The notes under the pieces: generated by a model
The model's database searches: none
What the model was told of the DNA's origin: nothing
Seen by the model: only the letters and a program-made list of their open reading frames with translations
Origin: Polyangiaceae bacterium
GTDB lineage: Bacteria > Myxococcota_A > Polyangia > Polyangiales > Polyangiaceae
Direction of reading: 5' to 3'
NCBI GenBank assembly: GCA_025937835.1
Contig: JAICQO010000065.1
Location: forward strand, 1-38,546
Length of the DNA: 38,546 nucleotides
Shown here: positions 30,678 to 37,864 of the stretch, one piece after another
How the letters are laid out: each line of letters opens with the position of its first letter
How positions within the stretch are numbered: the stretch's first letter is position 1
Position numbers and translations under genes: made by a program

Positions 30678-31331
30678 TCAGTGTTTTTCGCGGTCGATAC
30701 CGGGATGCGTGGCTTCGCCGGGCTCGTGACGCGGGTTTTGTGTCCCGTGCGAGCCGTCGCGGCCCGAGAAGCCCATCAACAGATCGCGCTCGTAGATGAA
30801 CTGATCGCGTGAATCGTAGGGAGGCGCGTGGATGCCGGTATCCATGCGGATCGCGTCGCACGGGCAGGCCTCGACGCAGAACCCGCAGAATACGCAGCGC
30901 AGCTCGTCGATCACGAAGCGCTTGGGGAAGCGCTCGTAGCCGCGCCGCGGATCACCCTCTGGGTATTCACCGGCCTCGATGTGGATGCACTGGGCGGGGC
31001 AGGCCGTGGAGCAGCACAGGCAGGCCACGCAGCGCGGGGACGAATCCTCACGGTGCGTGAGCCGGTGCACGCCGCGGAAGCGCGCCGGGTACGGGCGGCG
31101 CTGCTCGGGATAGCTGATGGTGTTCACGCCGTCGTCGATGGCCTCGATCGTCGGATCGTTGCGCTGCCCGAGCGCCATCTCTTTCGTGTTCTGAAAGAAG
31201 TGGCGCATCGTGATCGCGAGCCCCTTGGCGATCTCAGGCACGTAGGTCTGGACGCCCGCGCCGCGCTTCGGTCGTGGGACGGCTTTGCCGGTGACTTTTC
31301 TCGGACCCAGCGGTTGGTTGCTCTGACTCAT
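30678..31331 (-). CDS. nuoI: NADH-quinone oxidoreductase subunit I
   Basis: The 217-residue NuoI carries clusters N6a and N6b that relay electrons toward the quinone site. Two ferredoxin motifs are intact: CVACLCCSTACPAQCI and CVFCGFCVEACPCDAI. The amphipathic N-terminal helix (KGLAITMRHFFQNTKEMALG) and YPEQRRPYPARFRGVHRLTH are typical. About 35 polar residues after the second motif (DGSHGTQNPRHEPGEATHPG) make it longer than the roughly 165-180 of many species. ATG at 31331 is 23 bases after nuoH, with GGA eight bases upstream. Confidence 0.96.
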   Translation of the reverse strand: MSQSNQPLGPRKVTGKAVPRPKRGAGVQTYVPEIAKGLAITMRHFFQNTKEMALGQRNDPTIEAIDDGVNTISYPEQRRPYPARFRGVHRLTHREDSSPRCVACLCCSTACPAQCIHIEAGEYPEGDPRRGYERFPKRFVIDELRCVFCGFCVEACPCDAIRMDTGIHAPPYDSRDQFIYERDLLMGFSGRDGSHGTQNPRHEPGEATHPGIDREKH

Positions 31332-31354
31332 TGAATATCCAAGATTTTAAGGAC

Positions 31355-33145
31355 CTAGGCCTGCATGCGCGCGTTGCGCGTGCCGCCCATCGCCGCGGCG
31401 AACTGCGCGGCGCTCGGTGCGTAGAGCCGGCGCTTCCTCGGCGGCTTGAGCAGGAACAGCACGAGCTGAACTACGGCGTAGATGCCGAGCAACGCGACCG
31501 CCAGCATCGTCAGATCGGCGGCGATCTCGAGGCCGCTCAAGAACTTCGCTCCGGCGCCCTGCACGAGCAGGATCAGCATGCCCGTGAGCAGGATGTTCGC
31601 GAGCGAGGCCGGCAGGAGCTTTCGCCAGCCGAGGCGCATCAGCTGGTCGTAGCGGAAGCGCGGCAGCGTCCAGCGGATCGTGAGCTGCACCCAGCAGAGA
31701 GCGATCGTCTTCAGGATGAAGCCGAGCAGGCCGATCACCACCACCAGGGCGTGGGGCAGCTGCTGGGTGAAGTAGACCGCGTCGCCGATCGCGATCTCGA
31801 GACCGGCGCGGTTGATGAACGGCAGGTGCCAGCCGCCGAGGAAGATCGCCGCGAGCAGCGCGCTCGAGGTGACGACCGCGATGTACTCCGCGAAGAAGAA
31901 CATCGCGAACTTCATGCCCGCGTACTCCGTGTAGTAGCCGGCGACGATTTCGCTCTCGCCTTCCGGCAAGTCGAAGGGAATGCGCTTGGACTCGGCCACC
32001 GCGGCCGCGAAGAACATCACGAAGCCGAGCGGCTGCACGAACACGCCCCAGGTGTTCTCTGCCTGCCAGCGGATCATCGCGTCCACCCGCAGGCTGCCGT
32101 AGATCATGAAGGCGCCGATCAGCGTCAGGCCCATCGTGACCTCGTACGAGACCATCTGGCTTGCGGCGCGCAGGCCTCCGAGCAAGCTGTACTTGTTGTC
32201 GCTGGCCCAACCCGCGAGCGCCGCGCCCACGATGCCGGTGCCGGCCAGGGCGAAGAAGTAGAGCACGCCGACGTTGAGATCGATCACGCCGAGCGGCAGC
32301 GCGCCCTCGGTGCACACGCCCTCCTTCGGCACGAAGGCCATCAGCTCGGACAGCAACAGGCCGCCCTGCTCGTCCACGCCGAAGCACAGCGTGTCGCCGA
32401 AGGGCACCACGCCGAGCACGACCAGCGCGGGGAAGAACGAGATCAGCGGCGCGACGCTGTGCAGGAAGCGATCGGCCTTGGGCGGGATGAAGTCTTCCTT
32501 GAACAGGGTCTTCAAGCCGTCTGCTGCGGGGTGGAGCAGGCCGATCAGGCGCAGGCCGACGCGCGGCTCGTGGCGAATGCTGTAGGCCGCGTACCCGGCG
32601 CCGAACAACACGGCGAACGAGAACACCGCGGCCCCACCGTAGACGCCGACCTGGGCGAGCGCGTCCCCGGTCGAGGTGTTGCGGAAGAACGCGCCGAGCG
32701 CGAGCGTGACGGCGTGGGCGGCGAAGCCGACGTAGACGATCCGGCGCGGATCGCCGAAACCGGCCAGGAACGCGTCGAAGCTGTTGCGGATGCCGCGGTT
32801 TCGCACCTTGCCCGCGATCGCGAGCGCGGTGAACCAGACGAAGAAGATCGCCAGCTGGCTGATGACCAGGGACGCTCCGCCGATCTCCGACTCACGGAGT
32901 TCGGCGTTGAACTTCACGTAGGCGGGCAGCGCGGCTGCCACGGCGATCGCCGGCAACACGGCCAACCCCTGCGCGAGCGGCGTCGGCAGCCAGATCACCG
33001 CGCGGTTCGGGCCGACGCGGTCCTGGATCGCCGCGCCTTGCCGGCGGTCCGCCCAGGTGAGCAGCACCGCCACGTTCATGGCGAACATCACGACGGCGAA
33101 GGCTTTGAGGCCGCTCAGCGCGACCATGACCCAATCGAGATTCAT
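31355..33145 (-). CDS. nuoH: NADH-quinone oxidoreductase subunit H with large membrane insertion
   Basis: NuoH forms the quinone tunnel of complex I. At 596 residues this one is far longer than the usual 325-430. The family parts are present: helix 1 with WADRRQGAAIQDRVGPNR (31-48), GLLHPAADGLKTLFKEDFIP (202-221), NVGVLYFFALAG, GWASDNKYSLLGGLRAASQM, SYEVTMGL, RIPFDLPEGESEIVAGYYTE, YAGMKFAMFFFAEY and PRFRYDQLMRLGW. Between RVGPNR and GLLHP, where other NuoH have about four residues, lie about 150 with four predicted helices (near 60-78, 91-112, 136-154, 168-190). A 35-residue Cys-containing insert (about 251-286) and an extra C-terminal helix (about 545-566) are also seen. The frame is unbroken and the ATG overlaps the nuoG stop (ATGA). 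Confidence 0.94.
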   Translation of the reverse strand: MNLDWVMVALSGLKAFAVVMFAMNVAVLLTWADRRQGAAIQDRVGPNRAVIWLPTPLAQGLAVLPAIAVAAALPAYVKFNAELRESEIGGASLVISQLAIFFVWFTALAIAGKVRNRGIRNSFDAFLAGFGDPRRIVYVGFAAHAVTLALGAFFRNTSTGDALAQVGVYGGAAVFSFAVLFGAGYAAYSIRHEPRVGLRLIGLLHPAADGLKTLFKEDFIPPKADRFLHSVAPLISFFPALVVLGVVPFGDTLCFGVDEQGGLLLSELMAFVPKEGVCTEGALPLGVIDLNVGVLYFFALAGTGIVGAALAGWASDNKYSLLGGLRAASQMVSYEVTMGLTLIGAFMIYGSLRVDAMIRWQAENTWGVFVQPLGFVMFFAAAVAESKRIPFDLPEGESEIVAGYYTEYAGMKFAMFFFAEYIAVVTSSALLAAIFLGGWHLPFINRAGLEIAIGDAVYFTQQLPHALVVVIGLLGFILKTIALCWVQLTIRWTLPRFRYDQLMRLGWRKLLPASLANILLTGMLILLVQGAGAKFLSGLEIAADLTMLAVALLGIYAVVQLVLFLLKPPRKRRLYAPSAAQFAAAMGGTRNARMQA

Positions 33146-34743
33146 GAACCGGCTCCCGCGCTGACCGGGGCCGCCGGCGAGGCCGACGAGCGCTGGATCG
33201 AGAACGCGTTCTGGAGATCAACCAGGCGCTTCCAGCCCGGCGGCGTGCCGAGCACCTTGGCGACGTCGGCGACGAGTCGGTACGCGGGGCGGGACGCGCC
33301 CTGCGGCTCGATCGCCTTCTCGCTCTGTTGGCGCAAACCCTTGGCGTTGACGAAGGTGCCGTCCGATTCGGCCCAGCTCGAGGCCGGGAGCAGCACCTTG
33401 GCGCGCTTGGCCCAGGGCCCTTCGTGCGTAGACAAAGCCACGAGCTCGATGCCCGACGGGATCGGCTTGCTCGGATCGTTCACCTGAGAGCCGAGCGCGA
33501 GCACGGTCTTGATGCTGCCGTCGGCCGCGGCCTTCAAGAAGTCGTCGAAGCTCTTGGGCGCGCTCGGAGCGACCAGCTCGAAGATGCCGGCTTCGTTCGG
33601 ATTACGGTCGGAGTCGAGCAAGATGTTGTCGCCCGTCCCGTCGGGGCGGCCGCTCTCGTAGATACCGGCGACGTGCAGCACCTCGCGCGCGAGCCAGAGC
33701 AGCGCGGCGTTGTCCTCTTGCGAGTGCTCTGCGCTCAGGACCACCGCGGTGGAGGCGGGGTCGGCCCGGCGCAGCAGCTCGGCCGCCTTCTGAACCGCCG
33801 ACACGAGCGTGGTCGGCTCACCGCCGACGCGCGGCTCGAGCACGCGGTTTTCGTGGATGCGCCTGTAGTCGAGCATGCCGACGTCGCACATCCAGTACTT
33901 GTTGACCGCCAGGTTCTCGCGAGGGCGGTAGCGATGGACCTTCTGCGAGCGCGGGTCGAAATCGGTGAACGAGTTGCAACCGGTGGCGCAGCCGACGCAA
34001 ACGGTACGGGCCGAGCGCAAGAACCAGACGCGCGCCTTGAAGCGGAAGTCGATGGCCGTGAGCGCACCGACCGGGCACACGTATTCGGTCATCAACGTGT
34101 AGTTGTGATCGAGCTGACGGCCCGGCGCGACCGTGATCTCGTTCAGGTTGCCGCGCTCGCGCACGGAGAGCACCGGGTCCTTCGCGAGCTCGTCGGAGAC
34201 GCGCACGCAGCGCGTGCAGACGATGCAGCGCTCGGCGTCGTAGACGATGGTCGGCCCGAACACGACGCCCTTCGGCTTGTGGACGGGCTCGTCCCGCATG
34301 CGCTTCTTCTTGGCCTGGTGCTCGAGCCAGTAGTCCTGGAGCCGGCACTCGCCCGCCTGATCGCAGATCGGGCAATCCACCGGGTGGTTCAGGAGCAGGA
34401 GCTCTTGCACCGCCGAGCGCGCACGCAGCACGTGGTCGCTGGTCTGGCTCTTGACGACCATGCCGTCGGCGCATGCTTGCTGGCAGGCGGGCTGGAGCTT
34501 GGGTTTGCGCTGCGGCACGTAGTCGCCGCGCTCGGCGTCCCAGGCCAGCACGTCCAGCATCAACGCCGGGCGCCCGGGCGGCGGCGCGATCTCGACCAGA
34601 CACATGCGGCAGTTCGCCGCCACGCTCAGGCCGGGGTGCCAGCAGTAGTGCGGGATGTCCACGCCCACGCGGTGCGCCGCGCGGATGATCGTGTCGCCCG
34701 GCTCGAAGGGAATGTCTCGGTCGTCTAGCTTGAAGGTGGGCAT
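33142..34743 (-). CDS. nuoG: NADH-quinone oxidoreductase subunit G, short form
   Basis: A 533-residue NuoG, shorter than the 680-900 of many bacteria. Cluster ligands can be read off: [2Fe-2S] C34, C45, C48, C87; the His-ligated cluster H120, C124, C127, C133 (HPVDCPICDQAGEC); C173, C176, C179 and C223; and a fourth site C249-x2-C252-x3-C256-x29-C286, the N7-like pattern. After this a reduced molybdopterin-oxidoreductase-like domain follows (VLSAEHSQEDNAALLWLARE; VLLPASSWAESDGTFVNAKG). nuoE and nuoF, the NADH-oxidising partners, are not in the window. The first 11 codons are duplicated upstream (34891-34923). Confidence 0.95.
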   Translation of the reverse strand: MPTFKLDDRDIPFEPGDTIIRAAHRVGVDIPHYCWHPGLSVAANCRMCLVEIAPPPGRPALMLDVLAWDAERGDYVPQRKPKLQPACQQACADGMVVKSQTSDHVLRARSAVQELLLLNHPVDCPICDQAGECRLQDYWLEHQAKKKRMRDEPVHKPKGVVFGPTIVYDAERCIVCTRCVRVSDELAKDPVLSVRERGNLNEITVAPGRQLDHNYTLMTEYVCPVGALTAIDFRFKARVWFLRSARTVCVGCATGCNSFTDFDPRSQKVHRYRPRENLAVNKYWMCDVGMLDYRRIHENRVLEPRVGGEPTTLVSAVQKAAELLRRADPASTAVVLSAEHSQEDNAALLWLAREVLHVAGIYESGRPDGTGDNILLDSDRNPNEAGIFELVAPSAPKSFDDFLKAAADGSIKTVLALGSQVNDPSKPIPSGIELVALSTHEGPWAKRAKVLLPASSWAESDGTFVNAKGLRQQSEKAIEPQGASRPAYRLVADVAKVLGTPPGWKRLVDLQNAFSIQRSSASPAAPVSAGAGS

Positions 34744-34759
34744 TCCAAAAATCCCATCA

Positions 34760-34890
34760 GTCTTGGCAAAAGCAGATCACGATCGCCCCGAGCGACCACA
34801 CACGAGAAACCCGACCGACCGGGCGCGGCCTGGTTGCGGGTAGCACCAGGGGCGAGGCGCTCCGGGAACCGAAACCCCAGTCCAAGAAAC
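34760..34890 (-). repeat. Dispersed intergenic repeat, nuo copy A
   Basis: The minus strand here carries the same ordered blocks as 21638-21772: GTTTCTTGG, GTTTCGGT, ACCAGG with CCGCGCC, TTCTCGTG, an identical 21-base core (34777-34797) and CAAGACT. It forms most of the spacer between the duplicated nuoG start and the true nuoG start. Confidence 0.65.
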
Positions 34891-34923
34891 AATGTCTCGG
34901 TCGTCTAGCTTGAAGGTGGGCAT
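34777..34923 (-). pseudogene. Duplicated nuoG 5' end, 48-codon mini-ORF
   Basis: ATG at 34923 begins MPTFKLDDRDI, identical to the NuoG N-terminus, then leaves homology at the duplication joint (VSWTGVSVPG...) and stops at a TGA at 34777-34779, 33 bases before the true nuoG ATG. It has the same 48 bases upstream as real nuoG, so ribosomes may start at both. The product is unlikely to be functional as a protein, but it could act as an upstream open reading frame. Confidence 0.6.
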
Positions 34924-34939
34924 TCCAAAAATCCCATCA

Positions 34940-35067
34940 GTCTTGGCAAAAGCAGATCACGATCGCCCCGAGCGGCGACTCACAAGAAAATCCCGACCGA
35001 CCGGGCGCGGCCTGGTCTCGGACAGCAACGGGGGCGAGGCGCTTGCAGGCACCGAAACCCGAGAAAC
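34940..35067 (-). repeat. Dispersed intergenic repeat, nuo copy B
   Basis: The minus strand carries GTTTCTCGGGTTTCGGTGCC (35048-35067), GAGACCAGG with CCGCGCC, and GCTCGGGGCGATCGTGA. This copy begins exactly at the nuoD stop codon. Its left block is closer to the copy at 21638 (shared GGGTTTCGGTGCC and GAGACCAG) than to nuo copy A. Confidence 0.65.
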
Positions 35068-36281
35068 TAACGATCACACTCGCCACCAATCATATTTAGA
35101 GAACCGAAGCACGGCACCACGTCGGCCATCATCTGGCCGGTGATCACGCGCTCGAGGCCGCCCGTGATGTAGTAACAGGGCGGGCGGATCCGCACGCGGT
35201 AGGGCGTACCGCTGCCGTCGCTCACGATGTAGAAGCCGAGCTCGCCGTTGCCGCCCTCGGTGTACGAGTACACCTCGCCGGCCGGGATTTTGAGCCCTTC
35301 CATCACGATCTTGAAGTGCTGGATGGTGCCCTCGATCGTCGTGTAGACGTCTTCCTTCGGAGGCAAGATCACGCGCGGGTCGTCGACGTTGACGGGGCCC
35401 GAGTCCGGCATGCGCTCGAGGCACTGGTCGATGATGCGCGAGCTCTGCTTGAGCTCCTCGATGCGCACCATGAAGCGGTCGAAGCAGTCGCTCGCCGAGC
35501 CGACCGGAACGTCGAAGTCCACCTCGCCGTACTTCATGTACGGGTGCGACTTGCGGATGTCGTACGGGATGCCGGTCGCGCGCAGGCACGGGCCGGTCCA
35601 ACCGAGCGAGATCGCGTCTTCCTGGCTGACGATGCCGACGTTCTCGAGGCGGTCGAGGAAGATGCGGTTGCCGAGCAAGAGCCGCTCCACCTCCTCGATG
35701 ATGTGCAGGATCTGCTTGGTGACCGCCTTGACGTTCTCCTTGAAGCCGTCGGTCGGGGGCTGGGCCATGCCGCCCACGCGACCGAAGGAGTGGGTCAGGC
35801 GCGCGCCCGTCTCCTCCTCCATCAAATCCCAGATCATCTCGCGGCCCTTGATCATCCACAGGAACGGCGTGAACGCGCCGAGCTCCATGGCCATCGCGCC
35901 GTCGCAGGTCAGGTGATCCGACATGCGCGCGAGCTCGCCCAGGATCATCCGGTAGTACTGGCAACGATCGGGCACGGTGACGCCGAGCAGCTTCTCGCAG
36001 GCCATGGCGAAGCCGACGTTGTTCAGCATCGGCGAGACGTAGTTCAGGCGATCGACGTACGGGAACACCTGCGTCCAGGTGCCGCGCTCGCACATCTTCT
36101 CGAAGCCGCGGTGCAGATAGCCGACCTGCACGTCGCAGCGTTCGATGGACTCGCCGCTGAGCTCCATCACGATCCGCACCGTGCCGTGCATGGCCGGGTG
36201 CGCGGGGCCGACGTTCAGCAACATCGGCTCGGACGCGACTTCGAGCTCCGCGTCGTCGAGGTCTTGGTCCAGTGCTTCCAT
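35067..36281 (-). CDS. nuoD: NADH-quinone oxidoreductase subunit D
   Basis: The 404-residue 49-kDa-type subunit that lines the quinone-binding cavity. Typical stretches are LNVGPAHPAMHGTVRIVMEL (with the quinone-site His), VGYLHRGFEKMCERGTW, DRLNYVSPMLNNVGFAMACE, RMSDHLTCDGAMAMELGAFT, SFGRVGGMAQPPTDGF, GIPYDIRKSHPYMKYGEVDF and the C-terminal FGSLNMIGGECDR. It is a separate protein, not a NuoCD fusion. Its start overlaps the nuoC stop by one base (TGATG), giving translational coupling. The stop lies at the edge of the downstream repeat. Confidence 0.97.
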   Translation of the reverse strand: MEALDQDLDDAELEVASEPMLLNVGPAHPAMHGTVRIVMELSGESIERCDVQVGYLHRGFEKMCERGTWTQVFPYVDRLNYVSPMLNNVGFAMACEKLLGVTVPDRCQYYRMILGELARMSDHLTCDGAMAMELGAFTPFLWMIKGREMIWDLMEEETGARLTHSFGRVGGMAQPPTDGFKENVKAVTKQILHIIEEVERLLLGNRIFLDRLENVGIVSQEDAISLGWTGPCLRATGIPYDIRKSHPYMKYGEVDFDVPVGSASDCFDRFMVRIEELKQSSRIIDQCLERMPDSGPVNVDDPRVILPPKEDVYTTIEGTIQHFKIVMEGLKIPAGEVYSYTEGGNGELGFYIVSDGSGTPYRVRIRPPCYYITGGLERVITGQMMADVVPCFGSLNMIGGECDR

Positions 36282-36883
36282 CAGAGGCTTTCGGGTTCGT
36301 CGCTCGGAATTTCGAGGCGGCCGTGCGCGTGGGTCTGACGGCCGAACGGCATGCCCTCGTCACGGCCGAAGGGCGCGAGCTTCTCGATGTTCGGTACGTC
36401 GCGGTAGGGCACGAGCGGTTGGATCCGCTCGGCCGGGTAATCCTTGCGCAAGGCGTGACCCTCGAACTCCGGATAAGTGAGGATGCGTCGCAGGTCGGGG
36501 TGGCCGCGGAAGCTGACGCCGAACATGTCGTAAGCCTCGCGCTCCGCCCAGTTGGCGCTCGCCCAGAGCTCGGTCAGCGTATCGAGCTCCGCGTTTTCGC
36601 CCTCGGCGTCGCCGACGCGAGCCTTGATCCGCAGGCGGTGACCCTTGGTGAGCGAGTAGAGGTGGACGACGACCTCGAAGCGCGGCTCGCGATCGGGATA
36701 ATCGACGGCCGTCAGATCCATGAGCATATCGAGGCGCGCCCGCGGATCGTCTCGCAAGAAGCGCGCGACGCTCTTCCACGAATCGGGCGTGAGCACGACG
36801 GTCTCGTCGCCGTGTTGTGCAGAGGTTTCGACGATTGCGTCGGGAAAGGTGCGTGCGATCAGGTCGACCAGGGCCTTGGCCAT
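36281..36883 (-). CDS. nuoC: NADH-quinone oxidoreductase subunit C
   Basis: The 200-residue 30-kDa-type subunit of the peripheral arm. The domain core includes MLMDLTAVDYPDREPRFEVV, VVHLYSLTKGHRLRIKARV, LTELWASANWAEREAYDMFG and the signature GHPDLRRILTYPEFEGHALR with KDYP. The tail (GRDEGMPFGRQTHAHGRLE) is polar. AAGGA stands seven bases before the ATG at 36883, and the gene is 34 bases downstream of nuoB. Confidence 0.96.
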   Translation of the reverse strand: MAKALVDLIARTFPDAIVETSAQHGDETVVLTPDSWKSVARFLRDDPRARLDMLMDLTAVDYPDREPRFEVVVHLYSLTKGHRLRIKARVGDAEGENAELDTLTELWASANWAEREAYDMFGVSFRGHPDLRRILTYPEFEGHALRKDYPAERIQPLVPYRDVPNIEKLAPFGRDEGMPFGRQTHAHGRLEIPSDEPESL

Positions 36884-36917
36884 GCGAAATCCTTCTATTG
36901 CTCCAGCGGGCCTGGGT

Positions 36918-37517
36918 TCAGGTAGGCGCGTTCGACGGACGCGACGAGCGCGAACGCCGCACCTGCACCAGACCGAGCCCCGGATCGTCCACCGGGTCGT
37001 GGCGCGGCTTGACCACCGCGGGCCGCCGATCGCCCTTCTGGATCTTGTCCTGGAGCAGCATCAGCCCGTCGAGCACCGCTTCGGGGCGGGGCGGACAGCC
37101 GGGCACGTACACGTCGCAGGGGATGATCTTGTCGATGCCAGCAACCGTCGCGTAGTTGTCGTAGAAGCCGCCGCACGACGCGCAGGTGCCGAACGCCAGC
37201 ACCCACTTCGGCTCCGCCATCTGCTCGTAGATGCGTCGCAGGATCGGCGCCTGGCGCTGCACGATCGTGCCGACGACCCACAAAAGGTCGCTCTGACGTG
37301 GGGAGAAACGCGGAGCCTCCGAGCCGAAGCGCGAGAAGTCGTAGCGCGGGCTCGAAACCGCCATGAACTCCATGCCGCAGCAGGCAGTCACGAACGGATA
37401 CATGAAGAGCGAGTACTTCTGCGCCCACGCCAGCATGTCCGCGAGGCGCGTGGTGGCGAAGCCCTGGCCGTCGCCCGGCGTCACGATCTCCGAGTTATTG
37501 CTGATCAAGTCTCCCAT
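36918..37517 (-). CDS. nuoB: NADH-quinone oxidoreductase subunit B
   Basis: The 199-residue subunit that holds cluster N2, the last electron donor to quinone. Ligands are C46 and C47 (TACCGMEFMAV), C112 (FGTCASCGGFYDNYA) and C141 (VYVPGCPPRPEAVLDGL). SPRYDFSRFGSEAPRFSPRQ and LWVVGTIVQRQAPILRRIYE are standard. ATG at 37517 overlaps the nuoA end by 13 bases, and a GGAGGAAGGGAG stretch lies upstream. The open frame extending to 37952 crosses nuoA and is not coding. A basic 25-residue tail follows the core. Confidence 0.96.
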   Translation of the reverse strand: MGDLISNNSEIVTPGDGQGFATTRLADMLAWAQKYSLFMYPFVTACCGMEFMAVSSPRYDFSRFGSEAPRFSPRQSDLLWVVGTIVQRQAPILRRIYEQMAEPKWVLAFGTCASCGGFYDNYATVAGIDKIIPCDVYVPGCPPRPEAVLDGLMLLQDKIQKGDRRPAVVKPRHDPVDDPGLGLVQVRRSRSSRPSNAPT

Positions 37518-37864
37518 TCGAGTGCTCCCTTCCTCCAGCAGTACGCGAGCGCGACGATCAGCGCGACGATGAAGCCGAACATGCTGAAGAACCCGGTCCA
37601 ACCTAGCCCTTTGAAGAGCGCGGCCCACGGGTACATGAACACGACCTCGATATCGAAGACCACGAACAGGATCGCCGTCAGGTAGAACTTCACGCTGAGT
37701 CGCGTGGAGCCGGCGCCTTCGGTGTCGTTGCCGCACTCGAACGACGTCATCTTCTCGGGCGTGGGGTTCTTGGGGCCGATGAATTGGCCTCCCAAGAACA
37801 TGACGGACGCGATGACCGCCACGATGGCGAACATCACGAACATGGGCAGGTAGAGTTCCACCAT
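37505..37864 (-). CDS. nuoA: NADH-quinone oxidoreductase subunit A
   Basis: A 119-residue membrane subunit with three helices: LPMFVMFAIVAVIASVMFLG, VKFYLTAILFVVFDIEVVFM and TGFFSMFGFIVALIVALAYC. The first loop has FECGNDTEGAG with the Cys used to mark conformational states of complex I. KFYLTAILFVVFDIEVVFMY is the family signature. It is the first gene of the cluster. A promoter candidate and leader hairpin lie in the 124-base gap upstream. Confidence 0.96.
   Translation of the reverse strand: MVELYLPMFVMFAIVAVIASVMFLGGQFIGPKNPTPEKMTSFECGNDTEGAGSTRLSVKFYLTAILFVVFDIEVVFMYPWAALFKGLGWTGFFSMFGFIVALIVALAYCWRKGALEWET

Follow-up and report, generated by a model that had tools for sequence, protein, structure and literature searches.

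The window that we have analysed, a stretch of 38,546 nucleotides from a Polyangiaceae bacterium, carries on its minus strand a nuo operon with the gene order A-B-C-D-G-H-I (30678..37864). Within it, nuoH (31355..33145, minus strand) encodes a protein of 596 amino acids that is matched by Pfam NADHdh with an E-value of 8e-99. The gene is a single frame of 596 codons, unbroken from its ATG start and with zero internal stops, as a sequence-only reading of this DNA had claimed, and nuoH overlaps the end of nuoG by four bases. NuoF and three antiporter-type subunits are encoded together on another contig (G000:C75:36307-44273), and two further antiporter-type genes lie at G000:C111:2854-7055; since these genes sit on other contigs, the complex I genes are spread over at least two loci. 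nuoH is encoded among the genes of what would be a complete complex I (A to D, G, H and I in the window, NuoF and the antiporter-type subunits elsewhere), the search by name having covered subunits other than E, J and K. The gene at 31355..33145 is the only full-length NuoH copy in the genome, and the long module that it carries, described below, is therefore part of the housekeeping enzyme.

Some smaller features accompany the gene. A near-identical direct repeat, with copies at about 34711-34850 and about 34891-35030 (180-base spacing), lies between nuoD and nuoG; because one copy contains the first codons of nuoG, the second copy resembles a duplicated gene start. A second, weak NuoH match in the same genome (L002, G000:C25:19940-20317) falls in a reading frame some 630 codons long, whose start is PDZ-like and is followed by a weakly NuoH-like membrane stretch. 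Several relatives (G010, G012, G020, G022, G023, G024 and others) have a second, diverged NuoH besides the main one, with an identity of 42-45 percent across approximately residues 288-550.

Among the core subunits of respiration, NuoH/ND1 is one of high conservation. The protein of the window has the core sequence, fold, motifs and nuo operon place of the NuoH/Nqo8/ND1 family (PF00146), from whose known members it is set apart by the four transmembrane helices added between TM1 and AH1, an amphipathic helix. This added part has no sequence match among solved PDB chains. It scores 331 bits against PF00146, well above the curated cut-off of 27, and the match consists of two NADHdh pieces, one on each side of the insert. 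The NCBIfam NuoH equivalog cut-off is missed (best model NF004741, 279 bits against 305), the match again falling in two stretches around the insert; because the features of sequence, fold and context are all those of NuoH, this shortfall affects the automatic name alone. In a 58-sequence alignment, the core retains every one of the motifs RxGP, ADGxK, KE, SYE, PFDxPExESE and RWTLPRFRxDQ, whose residues vary little or not at all from phylum to phylum. An AlphaFold2 model based on 58 sequences, of which three carry the module (mean pLDDT 81.9, pTM 0.78), matches solved NuoH and ND1 chains with Z scores of 33-39 over 295-338 residues.

The motifs RVGPNR (residues 43-48) and GLLHPAADGLK (202-212) are separated by 153 residues (residues 49-201, 32543..33001, minus strand). 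The sequence-only reading had placed the extra segment at 32552-33001, which is correct to within three codons, the true end being 32543. It had also taken the two motifs to be usually about four residues apart; this holds in many phyla, but other phyla have a distance of 9-24, and module-less relatives within the order one of 13. Because those relatives already hold 13 residues there, the net insertion amounts to about 140 residues, approximately residues 55-194. The stretch between TM1 and AH1 is thus far longer than the 4-24 residues otherwise typical of NuoH, and it is a variant feature that is no bar to NuoH identity.

In the AlphaFold2 model, a hairpin of two strands carries the four predicted helices of the insert (all features on the minus strand). 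The first strand (51-54, 32984..32995) matches the AxIxI of the 13-residue loops and leads into helix a (55-79, 32909..32983), which is directly preceded by P54 and contains P65, both conserved. Helix b (85-111, 32813..32893) contains W104 and is followed by a linker rich in Arg and Lys (112-132, 32750..32812), modelled with a short helix at low confidence, which is probably cytoplasmic given its positive charges and the topology of NuoH. Helix c (133-153, 32687..32749) bears the motif P133, R134, G140 and H144, and helix d (158-189, 32579..32674) contains Y185. The return strand (195-198, 32552..32563) then runs into AH1 (204-215). Both strands lie where the 13-residue loops of module-less relatives would lead one to expect a hairpin. 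Confidence within the module is moderate (ten-residue mean pLDDT about 52-91, lowest at about residues 100-140), and the module folded by itself reaches a pLDDT of 60. The four hydrophobic stretches noticed earlier are recovered as the four AlphaFold2 helices and, by hydropathy, in 55 of 56 inserts, the helix caller being used at a mid threshold with which its counts move. Because the number of module helices is even, AH1 stays cytoplasmic. The earlier expectation that an even count would leave the later helices in place is supported by the model, which has the same core fold as mycobacterial 8e9g_H (Z 39.3, rmsd 2.5, 334 residues).

To follow the module across genomes, we used a profile built from 17 inserts (profile A1). 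It matches 64 of the 183 genomes of the order, every one in the window's own family (f1), where NuoH matches were found in 104 genomes, so that more than half of the sampled genomes of the family keep the module. Among 377 genomes of the phylum, the profile finds 20 f1 genomes and one doubtful match elsewhere; this weak match, in a genome of another family (G078, E 8.7e-6), is chance-like and is without the P-R and H motif positions. In a comparison with 39 relatives, every genome of the same genus matches the insert end to end, as does roughly half of the rest of the family, and in the remaining relatives the NuoH match flanks the insert only. The module-bearers include Sorangium cellulosum So0157-2 and Minicystis rosea, the latter a member of the Polyangiaceae (PMC8436480), so that f1 probably corresponds to the Polyangiaceae. 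Among the genomes compared, those that have the module and those that lack it share one order of operon genes. Since a homologous insert is present in 64 genomes, complete single-contig ones among them, chance and sequencing error are excluded as its source, and the check for sequencing error thus finds the long frame to be genuine. An assembly artefact, or the fusion of a neighbouring gene, would have only the unusual length in its favour; the frame is unbroken, the insert is shared by these 64 genomes and no free-standing homologue occurs in the 183 genomes of the order, and we give such an origin practically no weight.

The module is conserved in a distinctive pattern. All 56 modules compared have W104, R134 and G140; P133 is present in 55, P54, P65 and G118 in 54, H144 in 52 (the remaining four have Q or N) and Y185 in 51. 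Pairwise dN/dS of the insert lies between 0.04 and 0.47 in 11 of 13 pairs and exceeds that of the core in all 13; in two Sorangium-group pairs it is about 1, where dS is very low. The module is thus mostly under purifying selection while changing faster than the core, which fits a structural or peripheral domain rather than a catalytic centre. Among the operon partners A, B, C, D and I, no insertion or deletion clearly follows the module: NuoA and NuoD have no indels that track it, and in NuoB a four-residue gap near position 180 tracks it in part.

The same site has been used in other lineages. We surveyed NuoH in about 115 genomes of the order and in 80 named records from many phyla. In other phyla the motifs are 4-24 residues apart; within the order, the distance is 13-14 residues in module-less genomes and 144-160 where the four-helix module is present. 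The module-less loop has the form AxIxIGxxxLRxxG and looks like a small hairpin. Families f3, f4, f5, f7 and f9 of the order have 81-104 residues at the site, and 19 of 20 of these short inserts have two helices at the mid hydropathy threshold. Because the flanks are alike throughout, the TM1-AH1 site is a recurring one. A Sandaracinaceae insert (L067), a similar one (L227) and one from f5 (L033) share the insertion point with it, have similar flanks (RxGPxRAxIxLP ... GLLHP) and mostly have two predicted helices; they differ from the f1 module in having no detectable sequence homology to it, and comparison of the module with the short inserts by hhalign gives a probability of at most 3 percent. 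A 70-residue insert inside f1 (L023) matches the f1 module at 89 percent by hhalign and looks like a shortened module. The largest inserts at the site, of 190 and 280 residues, occur in family f3 (L211 in G418 and L213 in G414) and have 5 and 6 helices at the mid threshold and 5-8 across thresholds. The sizes of the f3 inserts (95, 190 and 280 residues) are suggestive of multiples, and no clear repeat was found in them.

The history of the inserts was approached through a tree of the core columns. Constraining the f1 modules to group together raises the likelihood by 15.65 over the unconstrained quick tree (p-AU 0.725), and because the constrained tree has the better likelihood, a single gain of the f1 module fits, alongside a large f1 clade that is without it. 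Placing all insert-bearing sequences in one clade is rejected (p-AU 1.7e-122), which implies either several gains of inserts at the site or an ancient insert with many losses. The lack of detectable homology among the inserts favours repeated gain, at a level short of proof.

Searches for the origin of the module returned little. Pfam gives no match to the insert of the window and NCBIfam none that is significant, and the other inserts have scattered single-member Pfam matches with no two members agreeing. A PDB sequence search with profile A1 was empty up to E 10, a search that short single-helix proteins can escape. Gene fusion was considered and set aside: there is no second copy of the module in its own genome and no free-standing homologue in the order. 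Tandem duplication was likewise rejected, as the two halves of the module are dissimilar (hhalign 0.3 percent) and there is no long DNA repeat, and so was a heme-binding bundle, the module having only one conserved His. We found no paper on this insert in the literature searched, of which coverage was partial. The sequence-only reading would have been weakened had most Polyangia shared the insert with a described role; a large part of one family does carry it, and no described role was found. The module is genuine, and the literature searched contains no description of it.

The position of the module is informative about its possible role. The entrance of the quinone tunnel is framed by TM1, AH1 and TM6 of the NuoH-type subunit, and in simulations the opening of the entrance involves movement of TM1, AH1 and their connecting loop (PMC8799541). 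One E. coli structure has a disordered TM1 (PMC8357420); in mammals, NDUFA1 acts as a wedge bracing TM1 of ND1, and a longer TMH2-3 loop has been linked to TM1 stability (PMC8762328). The earlier proposal of an added membrane module in a loop by the quinone tunnel is therefore supported, and the contacts with quinone, lipid or an accessory subunit that it suggested are putative. We propose that a four-helix membrane domain was gained at the tip of the short beta-hairpin between TM1 and AH1, where it would pack in the membrane beside the quinone entrance, brace the flexible TM1 and provide quinone and lipid with a wall or vestibule of protein. It may thus act like an accessory subunit that has become part of the core chain, comparable to NDUFA1 on TM1 of ND1. 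NDUFA1, NDUFA3 and NDUFA13 place transmembrane helices on the heel of ND1 near quinone entry; they are separate single-helix proteins with no sequence similarity found to the module, and the analogy is one of position and role only. We give about even chances to this reading of the module as an integral accessory domain bracing TM1 and lining the quinone and lipid portal, the step from position to role being the inferred part. How quinone passes the narrow TM1/AH1/TM6 entrance is an open question on which the module bears.

Other roles can be weighed against the same evidence. The module could be a docking platform that binds another membrane protein, either a respiratory complex or a lineage-specific accessory subunit, with the invariant W104, R134 and G140 and the Arg-rich linker as a binding surface. 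Transmembrane accessory subunits do exist in the heel region of the mitochondrial complex (PMC8762328), but the unchanged operon order and the lack of a known binding partner leave docking an unlikely reading. We consider equally improbable a constructive neutral insertion, in which a segment at the hairpin tip became fixed and needed only to fold and stay embedded in the membrane, with no function gained. The inserts without detectable homology in several families, the rejection of a single insert-bearing clade, the faster change of the insert and the f1 clade without the module would all suit such a history; the three residues invariant in 56 of 56 modules, the near-constant H144, the mostly low dN/dS and the retention of the module in more than half of the sampled family genomes argue for constraint. 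That H144, R134 and W104 form a second quinone-binding or proton-relay site is very unlikely: H144 is predicted within helix c and is replaced only by Q or N, but these replacements are tolerated, it is the only conserved protonatable residue in mid-helix, and the core keeps all of the residues invariant across phyla, so that the usual path would be self-sufficient.

If the accessory-domain reading extends to the other inserts, the TM1-AH1 loop in this one Myxococcota order would be a recurrent site that has repeatedly acquired unrelated membrane modules, most with two or four helices and some perhaps with more, and each module would be an integral accessory domain controlling the access of quinone and lipid to the complex I tunnel; we offer this wider view tentatively and think it somewhat doubtful. 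Two, four or more helices are placed exactly in the loop that moves as the entrance opens, and cultivable bearers (S. cellulosum and M. rosea) and close relatives without the module together provide a natural experiment, a basis for comparing quinone kinetics, TM1 stability and lipid binding.

Two other features of this NuoH had been thought to add to the module. Both are real, but both also occur in module-less NuoH and are separate from it. The long periplasmic TMH2-3 loop (residues 251-286, 32288..32395, minus strand) contains C254 and C278, which are invariant in 19 module-bearing sequences, are present too in several module-less NuoH and may form a disulfide. The C-terminal extension (530-596, 31358..31558, minus strand), with an extra AlphaFold2 helix at 533-566 and a GGT...MQA-like end, is also found in module-less members of the family. 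In Nqo8 of Thermus thermophilus, the TMH2-3 loop is likewise longer and a further helix, TMH9, stands at the C terminus (PMC8762328); it is without the TM1-AH1 insert, and that stretch is longer by about 140 residues in the present protein.
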